Assembly (NCBI GenBank): GCA_903870245.1
Contig: CAIQCB010000057.1
Coordinates: 62,001 to 126,000 of the forward strand
Direction: 5' to 3'
Source of the DNA: an uncultured Methylocystaceae bacterium
GTDB taxonomy: Bacteria; Pseudomonadota; Alphaproteobacteria; Rhizobiales; Beijerinckiaceae
DNA length: 64,000 nt
In this document: in pieces, positions 57,735-64,000 of the stretch
How the letters are laid out: every line of letters starts with the position of its first letter
Position numbering within the stretch: the stretch's first letter is position 1
Made by a program: the position numbers and the translations under genes
Notes under the pieces: generated by a model
Told to the model about the DNA's origin: nothing
Seen by the model: only the letters and a program-made list of their open reading frames with translations
Databases searched by the model: none

Positions 57735-58028
57735 TTTTTGCCCATCCGAGGGTATCCGCAACTACGCTGCCGTGCGACGCAACTACCTGAAAAAAATAAA
57801 AAATCCTGACGATACCTATCGGGGGCTATCGGTGGGCATGAATCGCGTCTGGCGGCCTCGCTGACGGACCTCGCCCCCATTGATCAACCAGAAAATCGAA
57901 AGTACCGTCACGGCAAATGAGGCTCGTGACGGTACTTTTTTTTGATCTAGCGCACTGAATAGTAATTCTTTTCACCGCCACGAGCCTCCGAAAACCGCGT
58001 GACGGTACTTTTCGCGAGGTGGCTCAGC
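57735..58028. other. Repeat-rich attachment region between guaA and integrase
   Basis: The stretch contains AAAGTACCGTCACG (57899-57912) and its exact complement CGTGACGGTACTTT (57925-57938), followed by a run of T. A second copy of CGTGACGGTACTTTT lies at 57998-58012. GAGGCTCGTG (57919-57928) recurs inverted as CACGAGCCTC (57979-57988). Such repeats next to a tyrosine integrase and the end of guaA suit an att site with integrase and excisionase binding sites. The first hairpin could also end guaA transcription. Confidence 0.65.
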
Positions 58029-58849
58029 ATGTTGACCGATGCAGCGCTCAAGGCTTTGAAACCTAGAGAGAAAATGTTCAAGGTGACCGACCGTGACGGC
58101 ATGTATGTGCGCGTGGCACCGTCTGGCGCCATCTCCTTCAGGCTCGACTACCGGCTGAACGGCAGGCGGGAGACCGTCTATCTCGGCAAGTACGCCCGAG
58201 ACGGGATCTCGCTCGCCCGGGCTCGCGAACTATGCCTGGACGCGCGCCGGGCGATCGCAGAGGGGCGTTCCCCCGCTATCGAGAAGCAGCGGGAAAAGCG
58301 CCGGATCAAGGAAGCCAAGAGTTTCGCCGAGTTCGGGGAGAAGTGGCTGGTCAACGCGCCAATGGCTGACAGCACGCGCGCGATGCGCCGCTCGATCTTT
58401 GAGCGAGAGCTTATGCCAGTCTGGCGGAACCGTTTGCTGACCGAGATCACGCCCGATGACCTTCGCGCCCATTGCGCGAAGATCGTGGAACGGGGCGCAC
58501 CGGCGACGGCGATCCATGTGCGGGATATCCTGAAGCAGATCTACGGCTTCGCCATTCTCCACGGCGAGAAGGTCGCAAACCCGGCCGATGACGTCGGTCC
58601 AGCCTCGATCGCCACCTTCACACCCAAAGACCGTGCGCTCTCGGCGACCGAGATCCGCATCATGCTCAAGCAGCTCGAGCATGTTGCCACGCTGCCAACG
58701 ATCCGCCTCGGCATGAAGCTCTACCTCTTGACCATGGTCCGTAAGAGCGAGCTGCAGGACGCCGTTTGGGACGAAGTCGATTTCGACAATGCCGTCTGGA
58801 CGATCCCGAAGGAGCGTATGAAGCGATCGAAGCCGCACAACGTCTATCC
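58029..58849 (+). pseudogene. Truncated tyrosine integrase (guaA-site, P4/IntG type)
   Basis: From an ATG at 58029 the frame encodes the N-terminal DUF4102 domain (LTDAALKALKPREKMFKVTD, then RDGMYVRV), the core-binding domain, and the start of the catalytic domain including the first Arg (LLTMVRKSELQDAVWDEVDF). Similarity stops at KRSKPHNVY near 58849, where the sequence switches to antisense relaxase. The open frame runs on by chance to 58919. The downstream His-x-x-Arg and the nucleophilic Tyr are missing, so it cannot recombine. Position and type match integrases of elements at the guaA 3' end, such as IntG of tripartite ICEs in Mesorhizobium. Confidence 0.8.
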
Positions 58850-59738
58850 ACTGGCCGGGGCCGAGCGGCGCGGCGAGCCCAAGCTTTTCGAGCTTGCGCG
58901 CGCGAGCGATCAGCGTTGAGCGTTCGACATCGTTCTTCTGACCGGCGTTCGGCCGAAGGTCTATGAGACCGTCCTGCTTCCCCGCTTCCCGCGCCAGCGC
59001 CCGATCAAGCGGCGTCCAGCGGTCTGAGTCGACCTGCCGCTCCAGCGATTGGCGAATCTCATGCTCGCTGCGGGGCCCGAGCTCCAGGGTGACAAGCTGC
59101 TCGGCGCGGGCGCGGAGGCCTCGGCTGATATAGTCGCGGCTGATAACGAGATCGCCGCCGTCATCAACCCGGCCCCGCACCAGGACATGGATGTGGGGAT
59201 GCTCAGTGTTCCAATGGTCGATCGCCGCCCAATCGAGTCTGGTCCCGAGATCGCGCGCCATCTCGCCCATGAGGTCACGGGTGAAGGCGCGAAGGTCGGA
59301 AAGCTCTCCGGCGTCGTCGGGCGAGACGATGCATCGAAAATGATGTCGGTCGCCCCGGCAGCGATCGGCGAAGTCTCGCGCATCCATCTGGTCGCTGTTG
59401 GGATCAAACATTCTTCCGGGCGCGCCGTCGCGGGTGACGCCGTCGCGTTGCAGATAGCAAAGATGCGCGGTAAGCGGCGCCGATCTCGGACCGTGTCGCA
59501 CGACGCGCGCCTTGATCACAACGCCGCGCGAATGGGAGGTCAGGCCGCGCAGCGCCGAGAGACTTGCCGCCCGGCCGCGGCCGAATGCGCCACGCCCCTT
59601 TCCGCGCGCGTCCGACCGATGCAGACCGCCCGCCTTCTGCATGGTGGCCAGCACGCGCGACACGAAGCTCTTCGCTCTTCCCGGCTTCGTCGAGCGGAGG
59701 CGGCCGGGCCGAACGCGAATGTCGTCGTCACCCGACAT
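58850..59738 (-). pseudogene. Truncated conjugative relaxase (RlxS/DUF3363 type)
   Basis: From the ATG at 59738 the reverse strand encodes MSGDDDIRVRPGRLRST, then the relaxase core. The histidine motif is in IDHWNTEHPHIHVLVRG, and further conserved segments are LVISRDYISRGLRARA and RKLEKLGLAAPLGPGQW. This is the relaxase family (VirD2-like with DUF3363) carried by ICEs of Rhizobiales. Similarity ends at GPGQW near 58850, exactly where the convergent integrase also ends; the frame then runs on antisense through the integrase to 58230. It should have about 600-700 residues, so the C-terminal half is gone. An alternative start is at 59777. Confidence 0.8.
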
Positions 59739-59894
59739 GGCAAAGCGCAGACGAGGTGGAAATAGGCGCGTTGTCACAGAGGCTTGCTGCGAGCGAAAGG
59801 CTGCGCATCAAAATCGCAGCCTGTGTGAATGCATTGAAGGGGAACGACAAACGGACCGCCGGACAAGGCCGCAGGCTGCCCCTTTTATCCTGCC

Positions 59895-60741: not shown

Positions 60742-62178
60742 CTACACGGGAGGCGTTGTACGCTTACCTCTGACTTCCAGCACGCCTTTGCGCCATAGCC
60801 AGTGAGCGACTGACCAGCAAATATCCTCGGGGAATGATTGCCGCCACTCGATAATTATTGCGGCCAGCGAGCGGCTAAACGTCGTGGACTGAAGCAACGG
60901 CGCGATCGCCACAGGTCCCAGATATGCTATGGGCGCGCGCCACTCTGGCAGTCTCAATCCCAAGCGTTGGACAACGAGGTCGCCTTCGATCACCGCTGCC
61001 TCCTCAAACCTAGCCGACGACGCCAACTCGATGATCCCGTCTGTCCGAAGGGCGGCAACCGGTGACAAATGTTCGCCAGGTTCTGGTTCGTGTGAGGCCG
61101 ACCGCTCTTTCCAAAACTGACTGGAAAAATGGGATGCAACCTTATTATAAAGACTTGCCGACTTCCGAATATGGGCGCCCAACCGCTCGCGCTGCCGGTC
61201 ATCGTAGAAGTTGATGGCCATCGAGGAGGATTGAGGCTTACGCAGCATTGTGTTAGCGATCACGGCGGCCTGTAGCGCAGAAGCAATAGCAACCGGCACC
61301 CCTTGAGATGACAGGGGATCAAGCTTAAGGCTGGCGTCCCCGACGCGCAAATAGCCTAGTTCGGCATGTGTCTCGGCCGCGCGGCAGGTCGCATCACATA
61401 TACGAATCTCATTTAGGCGCGCATCAACAAGTACCGAACCGATTAGTCGTGATCGTCCAAGAATTTCAAGATATGTGCTATGTATTGCCGAGCGATCGCA
61501 ACGCGACAGACGCTTCGGTTCGATAAAGGCGATGGCGATCAGTTCCCTTGGCCCCACGGGCGCACACCAGAGCCATTCATTCTCGCACGCTTCGAGTATT
61601 GCGCGTTGAGGCTCGCGACTGAGATTGTCCCAGCGTGCGAACACCGCCAATGTAGTCGGACCGCGACGGCTTGGCGCTCCAGGTAACAGACGCCCCCCCG
61701 ACGCATCAACAATGATATGGCTTGAAACGACCGTTTGCTGGTTTGCGCCGAACTTTATTGGCGTGCGCCAACCGCCGTTCTCGTCGCGCACCGGTCGAGA
61801 TGCGCGCGCGCCCTCAATTGTATGGACGCCCGCAAGCGCTGCCGCTTCAAGTAGTATTGCGTCAAATCTTGCGCGCTCGACATAGAGGCCAGTTTGCTCC
61901 CTCTCTTCACTTAGCGTCGAAGCCCTATCATGTGGCCAAACCACGATGGGCGCGCGAGCCGGGATGAACTGCGCGCCGGCGATCCGCTCAGTTACGCCTA
62001 TTGCATCAAGTAGGGGCCAGATGATTGCGGGTAATGATGCGTCGACGCGATGTCGCGGAAAAACGGTCGCCTCCGCCAACAGAACGCTGTGACCCATGCC
62101 CGCCAGACGATTAGCGATCGTCGCGCCTGCGGGACCGCCGCCAATGACGAAAATATCAGTTTGGAGGAAGGACGTCAC
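60742..62178 (-). CDS. FAD-dependent oxidoreductase, LodB/QhpG-like maturation enzyme
   Basis: This 478-residue flavoprotein has an N-terminal FAD-binding motif (FVIGGGPAGATIANRLAGMG) and a second motif (YLRVGDASLKLDPLSSQGVP) near residue 280, the GD-type motif of halogenase and hydroxylase-like proteins. It lacks the tryptophan-halogenase WxWxIP. Its closest functional models are LodB, needed to form the tryptophan-derived cofactor of lysine epsilon-oxidase LodA, and QhpG of quinohaemoprotein amine dehydrogenase. The order LodA-like, radical SAM, FAD enzyme on one strand supports this role. It overlaps the radical-SAM gene by 23 bases. Identity as LodB-like is inference from context plus fold. 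Confidence 0.8.
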   Translation of the reverse strand: MTSFLQTDIFVIGGGPAGATIANRLAGMGHSVLLAEATVFPRHRVDASLPAIIWPLLDAIGVTERIAGAQFIPARAPIVVWPHDRASTLSEEREQTGLYVERARFDAILLEAAALAGVHTIEGARASRPVRDENGGWRTPIKFGANQQTVVSSHIIVDASGGRLLPGAPSRRGPTTLAVFARWDNLSREPQRAILEACENEWLWCAPVGPRELIAIAFIEPKRLSRCDRSAIHSTYLEILGRSRLIGSVLVDARLNEIRICDATCRAAETHAELGYLRVGDASLKLDPLSSQGVPVAIASALQAAVIANTMLRKPQSSSMAINFYDDRQRERLGAHIRKSASLYNKVASHFSSQFWKERSASHEPEPGEHLSPVAALRTDGIIELASSARFEEAAVIEGDLVVQRLGLRLPEWRAPIAYLGPVAIAPLLQSTTFSRSLAAIIIEWRQSFPEDICWSVAHWLWRKGVLEVRGKRTTPPV

Positions 62179-63559
62179 GCCTTGCCTCCGACGCTACTTC
62201 AACGCCAAGGATGCTCGCGAGCTGGTGTGGGCGTTCGGAAGCGAGCCTTACATAAACGCCAAGGCAATGATCCAACCAACCACGAATATAGTCGCAGAAT
62301 AGACGGCCGCGGTTGATGACGTCGTAATGACAGCCGCCCCCACAAAGATGACGTGCCCAACAGCTCTTGCAAGGCTCCTGGAATTGCACATTGCGCCGGG
62401 CCAACCAGTCTGCCTGCGAATTCTGATTCAATCCGACATCGATGTCGCCCATGCGTGCATCGTCATCATTGACGAAGCGATGACAAGCGTAAAGACCGCC
62501 ATCAGTGGAAACGCCAAGATAACTGCCGCCGGCCCCGCAGGGATATTCGTCACGGGACCCTTTGTGAATGCGCGCTAGGGTTTCAATTAAATTGGCGAAT
62601 GGAAGCGTTTTGCCCTCGGCAAGCAGGGCTTCGAACCGCTCGCTGCAGGCGATCATTTGTGCGAGCATCAGATCAAGCTCTTTAGTGTCGAGCGAACAGC
62701 TCCCGCTTGGGGAGGCGATGACCGGCGCGAATTGAATTCTGTCGAAGCCGAGATCAGCAAGGCCAGTCAAAATTTCTGGCAATTCAAGATTGTTCGGCGT
62801 AACGCTCACCCGCGCGGCTATATGGCAGCGTCGCTGTCGTCGTTCCACTAAATGACGCAGGCGTCCAATAACCCGCTCATAGGTACCGTGTCCGCCTCGA
62901 TCCGGTCGCGCTTTGTCATGCGTAGCGCCAATTCCGTCGATGCTGACAGTTACCGCGAAGCGATATTCGTCAAGAAAATCCGCGTCATCTTCAGTGAGCA
63001 GGGTGGCGTTGGTGGTAAGCGAGAAGTCGACAGTAACGCCTTTTGACGCAGCATAACCTGCGGCAAATTTCGTCGCTTCGCGCAACCCGGAACGATTGGT
63101 CAAGGGTTCGCCACCCATAAAGATCAGCCGCACGTGTTCGCCTGTCGCCGCGTCATCAATGAGCGATTTCACGGCGCGTAGCGCCACATCGAGCGACATC
63201 GATTTGTCAGCGCCGCCGAAATTACCGCCTTCGGCATAGCAATATGCGCAAACCAGATTGCATTTCGCCGCAATGGTGAGCGAAAATGAACGCACTGGGA
63301 CGGAACTCGGAATCGAACCGCCTAAATTTTCCGGGGCCGCTACGCCGACGGCAGTCATTAGCATCCGCAGACGCGCTTCGTCTCCGACGGCCATCGCTTC
63401 TCTCAGCGGGTCGAGCAGGCCCTCATCCGGCGCGTATAGCCGGCCGCTCTCAACCGTGAGCATCGCCCAGCGCCCGCCGGCATTGAAGATATGCGCGGCC
63501 GCGTCAGCTGGCTGCGCAGCGCTCGCTTGCAGGACGTAATCCTCCACGATGAACTCCAA
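62156..63559 (-). CDS. Radical SAM/SPASM peptide maturase (QhpD/PeaB-like)
   Basis: This 467-residue enzyme has the radical-SAM motif C100-NLV-C104-AY-C107, a GGEPL segment (FMGGEPLTNRS), and a C-terminal SPASM domain with auxiliary-cluster cysteines (PCGAGGSYLGVSTDGGLYAC, then CKSCWARHLCGGGCH and FCDYIRGW). The CHRFVN string after the SPASM start recalls QhpD, which makes thioether cross-links in the gamma subunit of quinohaemoprotein amine dehydrogenase. The N-terminal 95 residues could be a peptide-binding domain. It lies between the LodA-like oxidase and the FAD enzyme, so its likely substrate is the oxidase or a small companion peptide. Confidence 0.85.
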   Translation of the reverse strand: MEFIVEDYVLQASAAQPADAAAHIFNAGGRWAMLTVESGRLYAPDEGLLDPLREAMAVGDEARLRMLMTAVGVAAPENLGGSIPSSVPVRSFSLTIAAKCNLVCAYCYAEGGNFGGADKSMSLDVALRAVKSLIDDAATGEHVRLIFMGGEPLTNRSGLREATKFAAGYAASKGVTVDFSLTTNATLLTEDDADFLDEYRFAVTVSIDGIGATHDKARPDRGGHGTYERVIGRLRHLVERRQRRCHIAARVSVTPNNLELPEILTGLADLGFDRIQFAPVIASPSGSCSLDTKELDLMLAQMIACSERFEALLAEGKTLPFANLIETLARIHKGSRDEYPCGAGGSYLGVSTDGGLYACHRFVNDDDARMGDIDVGLNQNSQADWLARRNVQFQEPCKSCWARHLCGGGCHYDVINRGRLFCDYIRGWLDHCLGVYVRLASERPHQLASILGVEVASEARRDVLPPN

Positions 63560-63627
63560 TCATGCGGCTATGACCGCGTTTGAATGGATAGCGCGCGCAA
63601 TTTATCGCCGAGCGCGGGCGCCACCGA

Positions 63628-64000
63628 TCAAACGATATCGACCAGATCGTCGCCAGGTCCGCGTTCGGTTTCTATCGCCTTGCCATTCACGATTCTGACC
63701 ACGCCGATCTTGTCCTGATGGCGCTCGAAATCATCTCCGTTTGTCAGTCGCGACGGATTGGGACCGGTGCTCGCATATTGACGCCGATACACACGCACTG
63801 GCGTATTCGTCGCCTCATCAAGAAAAGCCTGTGTCGGAAGATTTTCCGCCCAATAGCCAATACAGGCTGTGAAATCCGTCTGCCAGGGCGAGCAGAGTCC
63901 GCTCGTCAGTTGACCTGGGACCGCGCCGGGTTCAGCCGGGGAGCCTTTATGCCGAACTCGCATCTCGCGCGGATCAAGGAGCGGCTCGACATTCGGATTG
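63628..64000 (-). CDS. LodA-like quinoprotein oxidase, C-terminal part (5' end outside window)
   Basis: The reverse frame is open from the window edge to a stop at 63628. It gives the last 123 residues or so of a protein resembling the LodA/GoxA family (CTQ-dependent amino-acid oxidases): NPNVEPLLDPREMRVRHKGS and PGQLTSGLCSPWQTDFTACI (consecutive stretches), then GYWAENLPTQAFL. In LodA a Cys and a Trp in this region are joined to form cysteine tryptophylquinone; here the Cys in FTAC and the Trp in GYW are candidates. The apparent ATG at 63963 is internal. Downstream on the same strand are the radical-SAM and FAD genes. Substrate unknown. Confidence 0.75.
   Translation of the reverse strand, partial: NPNVEPLLDPREMRVRHKGSPAEPGAVPGQLTSGLCSPWQTDFTACIGYWAENLPTQAFLDEATNTPVRVYRRQYASTGPNPSRLTNGDDFERHQDKIGVVRIVNGKAIETERGPGDDLVDIV

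Follow-up and report, generated by a model that had tools for sequence, protein, structure and literature searches.

What does an operon make when a gene resembling the oxidase LodA is followed by genes for both a radical S-adenosylmethionine (SAM) enzyme and a flavoprotein? We met this arrangement at the end of a 64,000-nucleotide stretch of DNA from an uncultured Methylocystaceae bacterium (G000:C57:62001-126000, G000 being its genome), which is called the window below. The initial annotation had described a LodA-type C-terminus, a radical SAM enzyme with CNLVCAYC and a SPASM domain, and a flavoprotein with GGGPAG, following one another on one strand with the last two genes overlapping by 23 bases, and all of this was confirmed in the open reading frames (ORFs; Table 1). 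Our analysis suggests that the operon encodes a small LodA-type quinoprotein that would be matured in the manner of QhpC, the gamma subunit of quinohaemoprotein amine dehydrogenase (QHNDH), and we put the probability of this reading at roughly 70%. It starts from what was directly observed, namely the gene content, the LodA-type sequence, the conservation of the cross-link residues and the genes' linkage to one another in nine phyla.

The oxidase gene and its maturase genes

When the window ORF was joined to the upstream DNA (L002), the whole oxidase was recovered as a protein of 403 amino acids starting with ATG at L002:8840 (hereafter mini-LodA). The complete protein matched LodA_N (PF17990) with 57.9 bits, over the cut-off of 26.3, and the partial ORF matched LodA_C (PF18417) with an E value of 8.3e-5 (22.8 bits versus a cut-off of 25 bits). 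Thus, the possibility raised by the initial annotation that the partial gene might be unrelated to LodA was excluded. LodA_C exceeded its cut-off in two relatives, L032 (35.8 bits) and L026 (25.6 bits). The NCBIfam equivalog cut-offs of GoxA (41.5 of 750) and LodA (27.8 of 600) were failed by mini-LodA, and a PDB sequence search returned, at E ≤1, only the L-lysine 6-oxidases 2ymw (E 0.3) and 3weu (E 0.35), both weak matches. They align at LTKRMACPWQADFFNC of LodA, the last Cys of which is C516 by chain numbering, and the cysteine tryptophylquinone (CTQ) of LodA is formed by C516 and W581 (PMC4417212). From its sequence, we predict that the window operon encodes a CTQ-type oxidase related to LodA. 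Like the CTQ-dependent oxidases LodA and GoxA, which are characterized by PF17990/PF18417 and by the maturases LodB and GoxB, mini-LodA has the LodA_N domain and the PGxE and PWQ-x-D-x3-C motifs followed by a Trp motif, and the predicted fold of a fused relative resembles theirs. It differs from them in length (403 amino acids versus 726 in LodA, the usual length being 600-700; PMC4417212), in the distance between the proposed CTQ Cys and Trp (4 residues versus 65 between C516 and W581), and in its neighbours, which are a QhpG-type flavoprotein and a radical SAM enzyme instead of a LodB-type maturase.

In an alignment of 14 radical SAM rows, the window among them, the radical-SAM cysteines (C100, C104 and C107) and those of the SPASM region (C341, C359, C397, C400, C406, C410 and C422) were invariant. 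The best NCBIfam model of the window enzyme was QhpD (TIGR03906; 326 bits, under the cut-off of 453), followed by PapB (NF047865; 253.5 of 340, also under the cut-off). QhpD was likewise the best model, under its cut-off, for all nine radical SAM relatives tested (255-345 bits), and a Paracoccus QhpD control reached 775.5 bits. Judged by these scores, the window enzyme is a relative of QhpD, not QhpD itself. PapB-type ranthipeptide maturases are SPASM radical SAM enzymes that make Cys-Asp/Glu thioethers (PMC9413430); the substrate of PapB is a peptide, whereas the substrate proposed for the window enzyme is itself an enzyme. The comparison with QhpD in a family tree that the initial annotation had suggested was made as a quick tree with no outgroup, thinned from 106 to 95 rows, in which seven QhpD rows formed one side of a branch (support 100) and the window enzyme clustered with those of four other mini forms (96; the six minis jointly 62).

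The flavoprotein, with GGGPAG close to its N-terminus, passed the NCBIfam QhpG model (NF049967; 249.3 bits, cut-off 240) and failed those of LodB (119.5 of 400) and GoxB (93.6 of 400), and its identification as LodB was dropped on these scores. The QhpG cut-off was also passed by the flavoproteins of seven of ten relatives chosen from the loci described below; those of L032 (225 bits) and L026 (98 bits) fell below it, and that of L028 had no match at E 1e-15. The initial annotation had proposed that the routes of LodA and QHNDH were combined here. That a LodA-like protein stands together with a flavoprotein and a radical SAM enzyme resembling QhpD was borne out, but because the flavoprotein is QhpG-type, the two routes are not combined; as far as the sequences tell, maturases of the QHNDH kind would act on a LodA-type substrate. 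The flavoprotein genes of four operons (L018, L021, L022 and L023) are annotated as tryptophan 7-halogenase, and the same annotation is found on peaA-adjacent genes, not scored here, of two QHNDH operons from Leisingera (L125 and L126). On QhpG-type flavoproteins this label is probably a misannotation.

A small Cys-rich peptide had also been considered as a possible substrate of the radical SAM enzyme, and none was seen in the operon among ORFs of at least 60 amino acids, the rest of the genome lying outside this search. Since only 68 base pairs separate mini-LodA from the radical SAM ORF as listed, a peptide gene would hardly fit in between, and a precursor gene lying between the operon genes was rejected on this gap and the 23-base overlap that follows. 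A separate peptide would be unnecessary because the CTQ protein itself carries a Cys/Asp pair.

Table 1. Positions of the operon genes in the window or in the adjoining upstream DNA (L002)
Feature	Position	Strand	Remarks
Mini-LodA, 3' part	63628..64000 (partial ORF 63628-63999)	(-)	Gene runs on past the window to G000:C57:126839 (L002:7629-8840)
Radical SAM/SPASM maturase, QhpD-like	62156..63559	(-)	467 amino acids counted from the TTG start as listed; TIGR03906 best NCBIfam model
QhpG-type flavoprotein, proposed peptidyl-Trp dihydroxylase	60742..62178	(-)	NF049967 score
Overlap of both maturase genes, 23 bases	62156..62178	(-)	ORF coordinates
Ferritin-like protein, 344 amino acids	L002:8899-9933		Directly upstream of mini-LodA; PF12902

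The family and its cross-link residues

Searches among plasmids yielded operons from Rhizobium, Bradyrhizobium, Mesorhizobium, Mycetohabitans, Embleya, Novosphingobium, Streptomyces, Nostoc and Microvirga, and a scan of species genomes with the 14-row radical SAM alignment gave 356 relatives, the best 80 of which were kept. Together with 13 plasmid loci and the window, 94 loci were profile-scored. The 80 genome loci were selected by radical SAM similarity only, and the presence of their other genes therefore testifies to linkage independently. When the whole fetched stretch of each locus was counted, 92 of the 94 loci (78 of the 80 genome loci) encoded a LodA-type CTQ protein, 93 (79) a flavoprotein match, 85 (72) a ferritin-like protein and 92 (78) either a mini part or X, the LodA_N-side part. 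All four components were present in 84 of the 94 loci, the window included, and at least one was missing in the other 10; thus, the arrangement is not a singular hybrid but a family. The radical SAM gene was adjoined on the same strand, with a gap below 400, by the CTQ gene in 91 loci and by the flavoprotein gene in 86, and the rows covered nine phyla according to the tree labels. This family, which is not visible from the window alone, is the most valuable part of our results. No description of a LodA-type protein accompanied by a radical SAM enzyme was found in the open PMC literature (titles and abstract starts, among the matches listed, with subscription papers and preprints outside the search).

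The oxidase occurred in four main shapes: split X and Y genes, a fused XY protein of approximately 720-800 amino acids, Y carrying a fused ferritin-like domain (L026 and L045), and the mini form of 391-421 amino acids (the window, L030, L032, L035, L053 and L086), which came from four named genera besides that of the window. The mini form of the window had no second example among 248 family genomes, in which ordinary LodAs or other forms of the radical SAM-linked system made up the remaining matches. In annotated plasmid records, the CTQ genes were labelled hypothetical or ferritin-like, and several flavoproteins tryptophan 7-halogenases. On a Microvirga lotononidis plasmid (L027, L133), an ordinary LodA gene lies about 10 kb or less from the radical SAM-linked system, and an ordinary LodA and a radical SAM-linked protein are also close together in L077.

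The core of mini-LodA, LCSPWQTDFTACIGYW, contains Cys316, Asp322, Cys326 and Trp330, and its PGxE motif contains Glu263. Asp322 and Cys326 were placed by alignment to LodA, a weak match (E 0.3), and Trp330 by its motif and its conservation in the six minis; the pairing of W330 with W581 was made by motif across a 60-residue length difference. C316 and C326 are the only two cysteines of the window protein, and C316, D322, C326 and W330 are invariant in all six minis; therefore, we predict a single thioether, Cys316-Asp322, and a single CTQ, Cys326-Trp330. The initial annotation had suggested that thioether cross-links might accompany a tryptophylquinone, and the residues for both are indeed present and conserved, the bonds themselves being predicted. 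In Paracoccus QhpC (read from L029 and numbered after the leader), the corresponding inventory is C7, E16 (in PGWE), C27, D33, C37, C41, W43 and D49, of which we take Cys7-Glu16 and Cys27-Asp33 to be thioether pairs. The QhpC leader is described as 28 residues long, the CTQ as formed from Cys37 and Trp43, and Cys41-Asp49 as a thioether. The family's CTQ proteins typically have the sequence NCFPGLEFD ... LCSPWQNDYRECACYYWAASRPD, with the cross-link residues in the order of QhpC, and their C-x5-D and D-x3-C spacings equal those of C27-D33 and D33-C37, respectively. Compared with the three Cys-Asp/Glu thioethers plus CTQ of QHNDH, the residues present would permit one thioether and CTQ in the window protein, and up to three thioethers in many relatives.

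A Cys at -6 from the conserved Asp was present in 92 of the 94 loci, that is, in those having such a protein, because the CTQ motif search only detects proteins that have Cys, Trp, Asp and Cys; the other two (L058 and L083) had no detectable CTQ gene, not another residue at this position. In contrast, the residue at -6 was Ala or Gly in all 20 distinct ordinary LodA genes, which also all have the PGxE motif. L114 and L120 (duplicates of L010 and L011) and L135, a fragment lacking the motif, are not counted in this set, nor are the radical SAM-linked proteins found in L066 and L077. A C41-like Cys and a D49-like Asp co-occurred in 87 of 92 proteins and were both absent in the other five, all of them minis, the sixth mini (L032) keeping both. 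The C7-like Cys was found in 66 of the 86 proteins with a parsed PGxE site, and also in L023, L024 and L025, which were misread by the script. In an ordinary LodA of Paraburkholderia caribensis (L129), the CTQ Cys and the WWP motif are separated by a very short loop, so that the compact CTQ arrangement is also seen in a LodA whose locus has no radical SAM enzyme.

Proposed maturation and alternative explanations

For the window operon we infer the following scheme. The QhpD-like radical SAM enzyme would first make a thioether between Cys316 and Asp322, corresponding to Cys27-Asp33 in QhpC. The QhpG-type flavoprotein would then hydroxylate Trp330 twice, and Cys326 would add to give CTQ. The mature enzyme would oxidise an amine or amino acid via a Schiff base on the quinone, with electrons passing most likely to O2, as in LodA and GoxA. 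In the weakest step of the scheme, the ferritin-like protein, with its possible two-metal Glu/His site, might act on the product (hydrogen peroxide or imine).

The window system shares with QHNDH a QhpD-like radical SAM enzyme, a QhpG-type flavoprotein, the C-x5-D spacing and a compact C...W site as in QhpC. On the other hand, the CTQ site lies in a LodA-type protein instead of a subunit of approximately 9 kDa, and the ferritin-like partner and a radical SAM enzyme under the QhpD cut-off set it apart. Neither the QhpC domain (PF08992) nor the haem-binding domain PF09098, presumably that of the QHNDH alpha subunit, had a match in the window's genome. Profile comparisons were made with hhalign against 200 shuffles each (failed shuffles: 3 for LodA, 1 for the family CTQ subunits and 0 for the minis). 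QhpC and a profile of 20 LodAs aligned around the CTQ site with an E value of 3.9e-5 (0 of 197 shuffles), and the order PGxE, D, C and Trp motif is common to QhpC, LodA and the radical SAM-linked family. An earlier run, with two failures and possibly stale values, gave 0 of 150 shuffles for both LodA and the minis. The sharing of the gene arrangement by many bacteria suggests that the CTQ-making systems of QHNDH and LodA, regarded so far as having separate origins, are related. A wider reading, for and against which we see about equal weight, is that the family forms a third, widespread class of CTQ enzymes with a LodA fold, QhpD-type thioethers, QhpG-type quinone formation and a ferritin-like dimetal partner, that this class connects QHNDH with LodA, that the scaffold with CTQ and thioethers arose once, LodA later losing the cross-link Cys and the radical SAM enzyme, and that the two-cysteine mini-LodA is the minimal case.

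Several observations weigh against maturation of mini-LodA in the manner of QhpC. LodA_C scores of the window protein (21.3-22.8 bits) stay below the Pfam cut-off of 25, and all ten radical SAM enzymes scored fall below that of QhpD (255-345 of 453), so that the cross-link positions are inferred. The flavoproteins of L026 and L028 are distant from QhpG, a ferritin-like gene is missing from some loci (present in 85 of 94), and the CTQ gene was undetected in two of the 80 genome loci, L058 (a 3.8-kb contig) and L083. QhpC compared weakly with the family's own CTQ subunits (E 0.012, 1 of 199 shuffles; 3 of 150 for Y in the earlier run) and with the minis (E 0.022, 1 of 200). Loss of the C41/D49 pair is confined to minis and may reflect one event. 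The structure model of mini-LodA was useless (predicted local distance difference test, pLDDT, 42), and that of a fused relative, which suggests a LodA/GoxA-like fold, had low confidence in the CTQ segment and Foldseek TM-scores of only 0.21-0.38 against GoxA and LodA.

Convergence is the strongest competitor for the origin of the CTQ sites. The Discussion of the QhpG study proposes that tryptophylquinone cofactors were made convergently in different proteins (PMC7876137), and the likeness between LodA-type proteins and QhpC could accordingly be convergent, with QhpD- and QhpG-like enzymes recruited independently. The common stretch is only about 30 residues long, the family's own profile matches QhpC weakly and the QhpD rows stand on one side of a long branch (in the tree without outgroup). 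However, we consider this account doubtful in view of the match between QhpC and the 20 LodAs, the motif order common to the three families and the relationship of both maturases to the QHNDH pair. A family that joins a LodA-like fold, the cross-link residues of QhpC and maturases of the QHNDH type makes the convergence proposal testable and suggests that QHNDH and LodA have a common origin.

A different modification of the LodA-like protein by the radical SAM enzyme, for example a Cys-Trp carbon-sulfur bond or a link at another acid, with the flavoprotein alone making the quinone, is rather improbable. In its favour, the enzyme fails to reach the QhpD cut-off, the models of PapB and of the SCIFF maturase also score well, and PapB accepts Cys-Xn-Asp with n = 0-6 (PMC9413430), so that spacing alone leaves the product open; nevertheless, the Asp is present in 92 of 92 CTQ cores found (where the motif requires it) and invariant in the six minis, the C-x5-D spacing is that of QhpC, and the second Cys/Asp pair is present or absent as a unit. 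Halogenated Trp or a small molecule made by the flavoprotein as a halogenase seems very improbable. Its Pfam Trp_halogenase score is 40.9 bits, the solved structure that it matches best is that of a halogenase (8zop, 99 bits, versus 75 for QhpG, 7ctq) and some relatives carry the halogenase label, but the full-length QhpG model passes its cut-off with 249 bits versus 92 for the halogenase model CmlS, and the unscored genes beside peaA in Leisingera bear the same label. Even less credible is a decaying operon or an inactive product, with the 403-amino-acid LodA as a remnant, for which its length, well below the usual 600-700 (PMC4417212), might speak. C316, D322, C326 and W330 are retained in six minis of similar length, which stem from four named genera in addition to that of the window; the four ORFs are uninterrupted and their lengths are close to those of L035; decay was set aside on the invariant core residues. 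If maturation in the manner of QhpC is true, radical SAM thioethers, described in the cited papers for the approximately 9-kDa subunit of QHNDH and for peptides such as PapA, would also be part of active sites in full-size enzymes of nine phyla. The two-cysteine mini protein is a clean test substrate.

The ferritin-like partner and the genomic surroundings

The ferritin-like protein matched PF12902 with 212 bits (cut-off 22.3). This domain is common to it and the VioB/RebD-type ferritin-like proteins, whereas it fails the equivalog cut-off of VioB (31.5 of 1250). E32, E64, E65, H68, E126, E205 and H220 were kept in all 12 aligned ferritin-like proteins, a set that would be compatible with a dimetal site, and PF12902 genes also stand beside fungal lodA-like genes (PMC4417212). 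That the protein removes hydrogen peroxide or uses the imine is a guess. In the mini-LodA operon of Bradyrhizobium sp. NAS96.2 (L032) no ferritin-like gene was found; in its place, a 371-residue protein without a Pfam match carries two CxxCH motifs (L032:4643-5758), which recalls the dihaem subunit of QHNDH. In Nostoc, an X-like oxidase half is fused to a ferritin-like domain (L026:5175-6809), and a nearby Y half is fused to another.

A scan for promoters and terminators gave sites no more numerous than in shuffles. The G+C content of the block L002:4-16 kb is 54.5-59.2%, compared with 57.6-65.0% and 64.6-67.2% in its flanks, and a phage-type integrase is encoded at 57999-58919 of the window, downstream of the operon. 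Because of the lower G+C content and the integrase, a recent arrival of the operon block is plausible, and L002:4000-16000 is possibly a genomic island. A 515-residue ORF without a Pfam match (window 58230-59777, minus strand) overlaps the integrase ORF on the opposite strand. The divergent genes upstream of the operon (L002:10151-19999) encode hydrolase-like, CHAT-domain, GMC-type oxidoreductase and GDPD-like proteins and three proteins without a Pfam match; they had two weak matches, in one other locus (L039).

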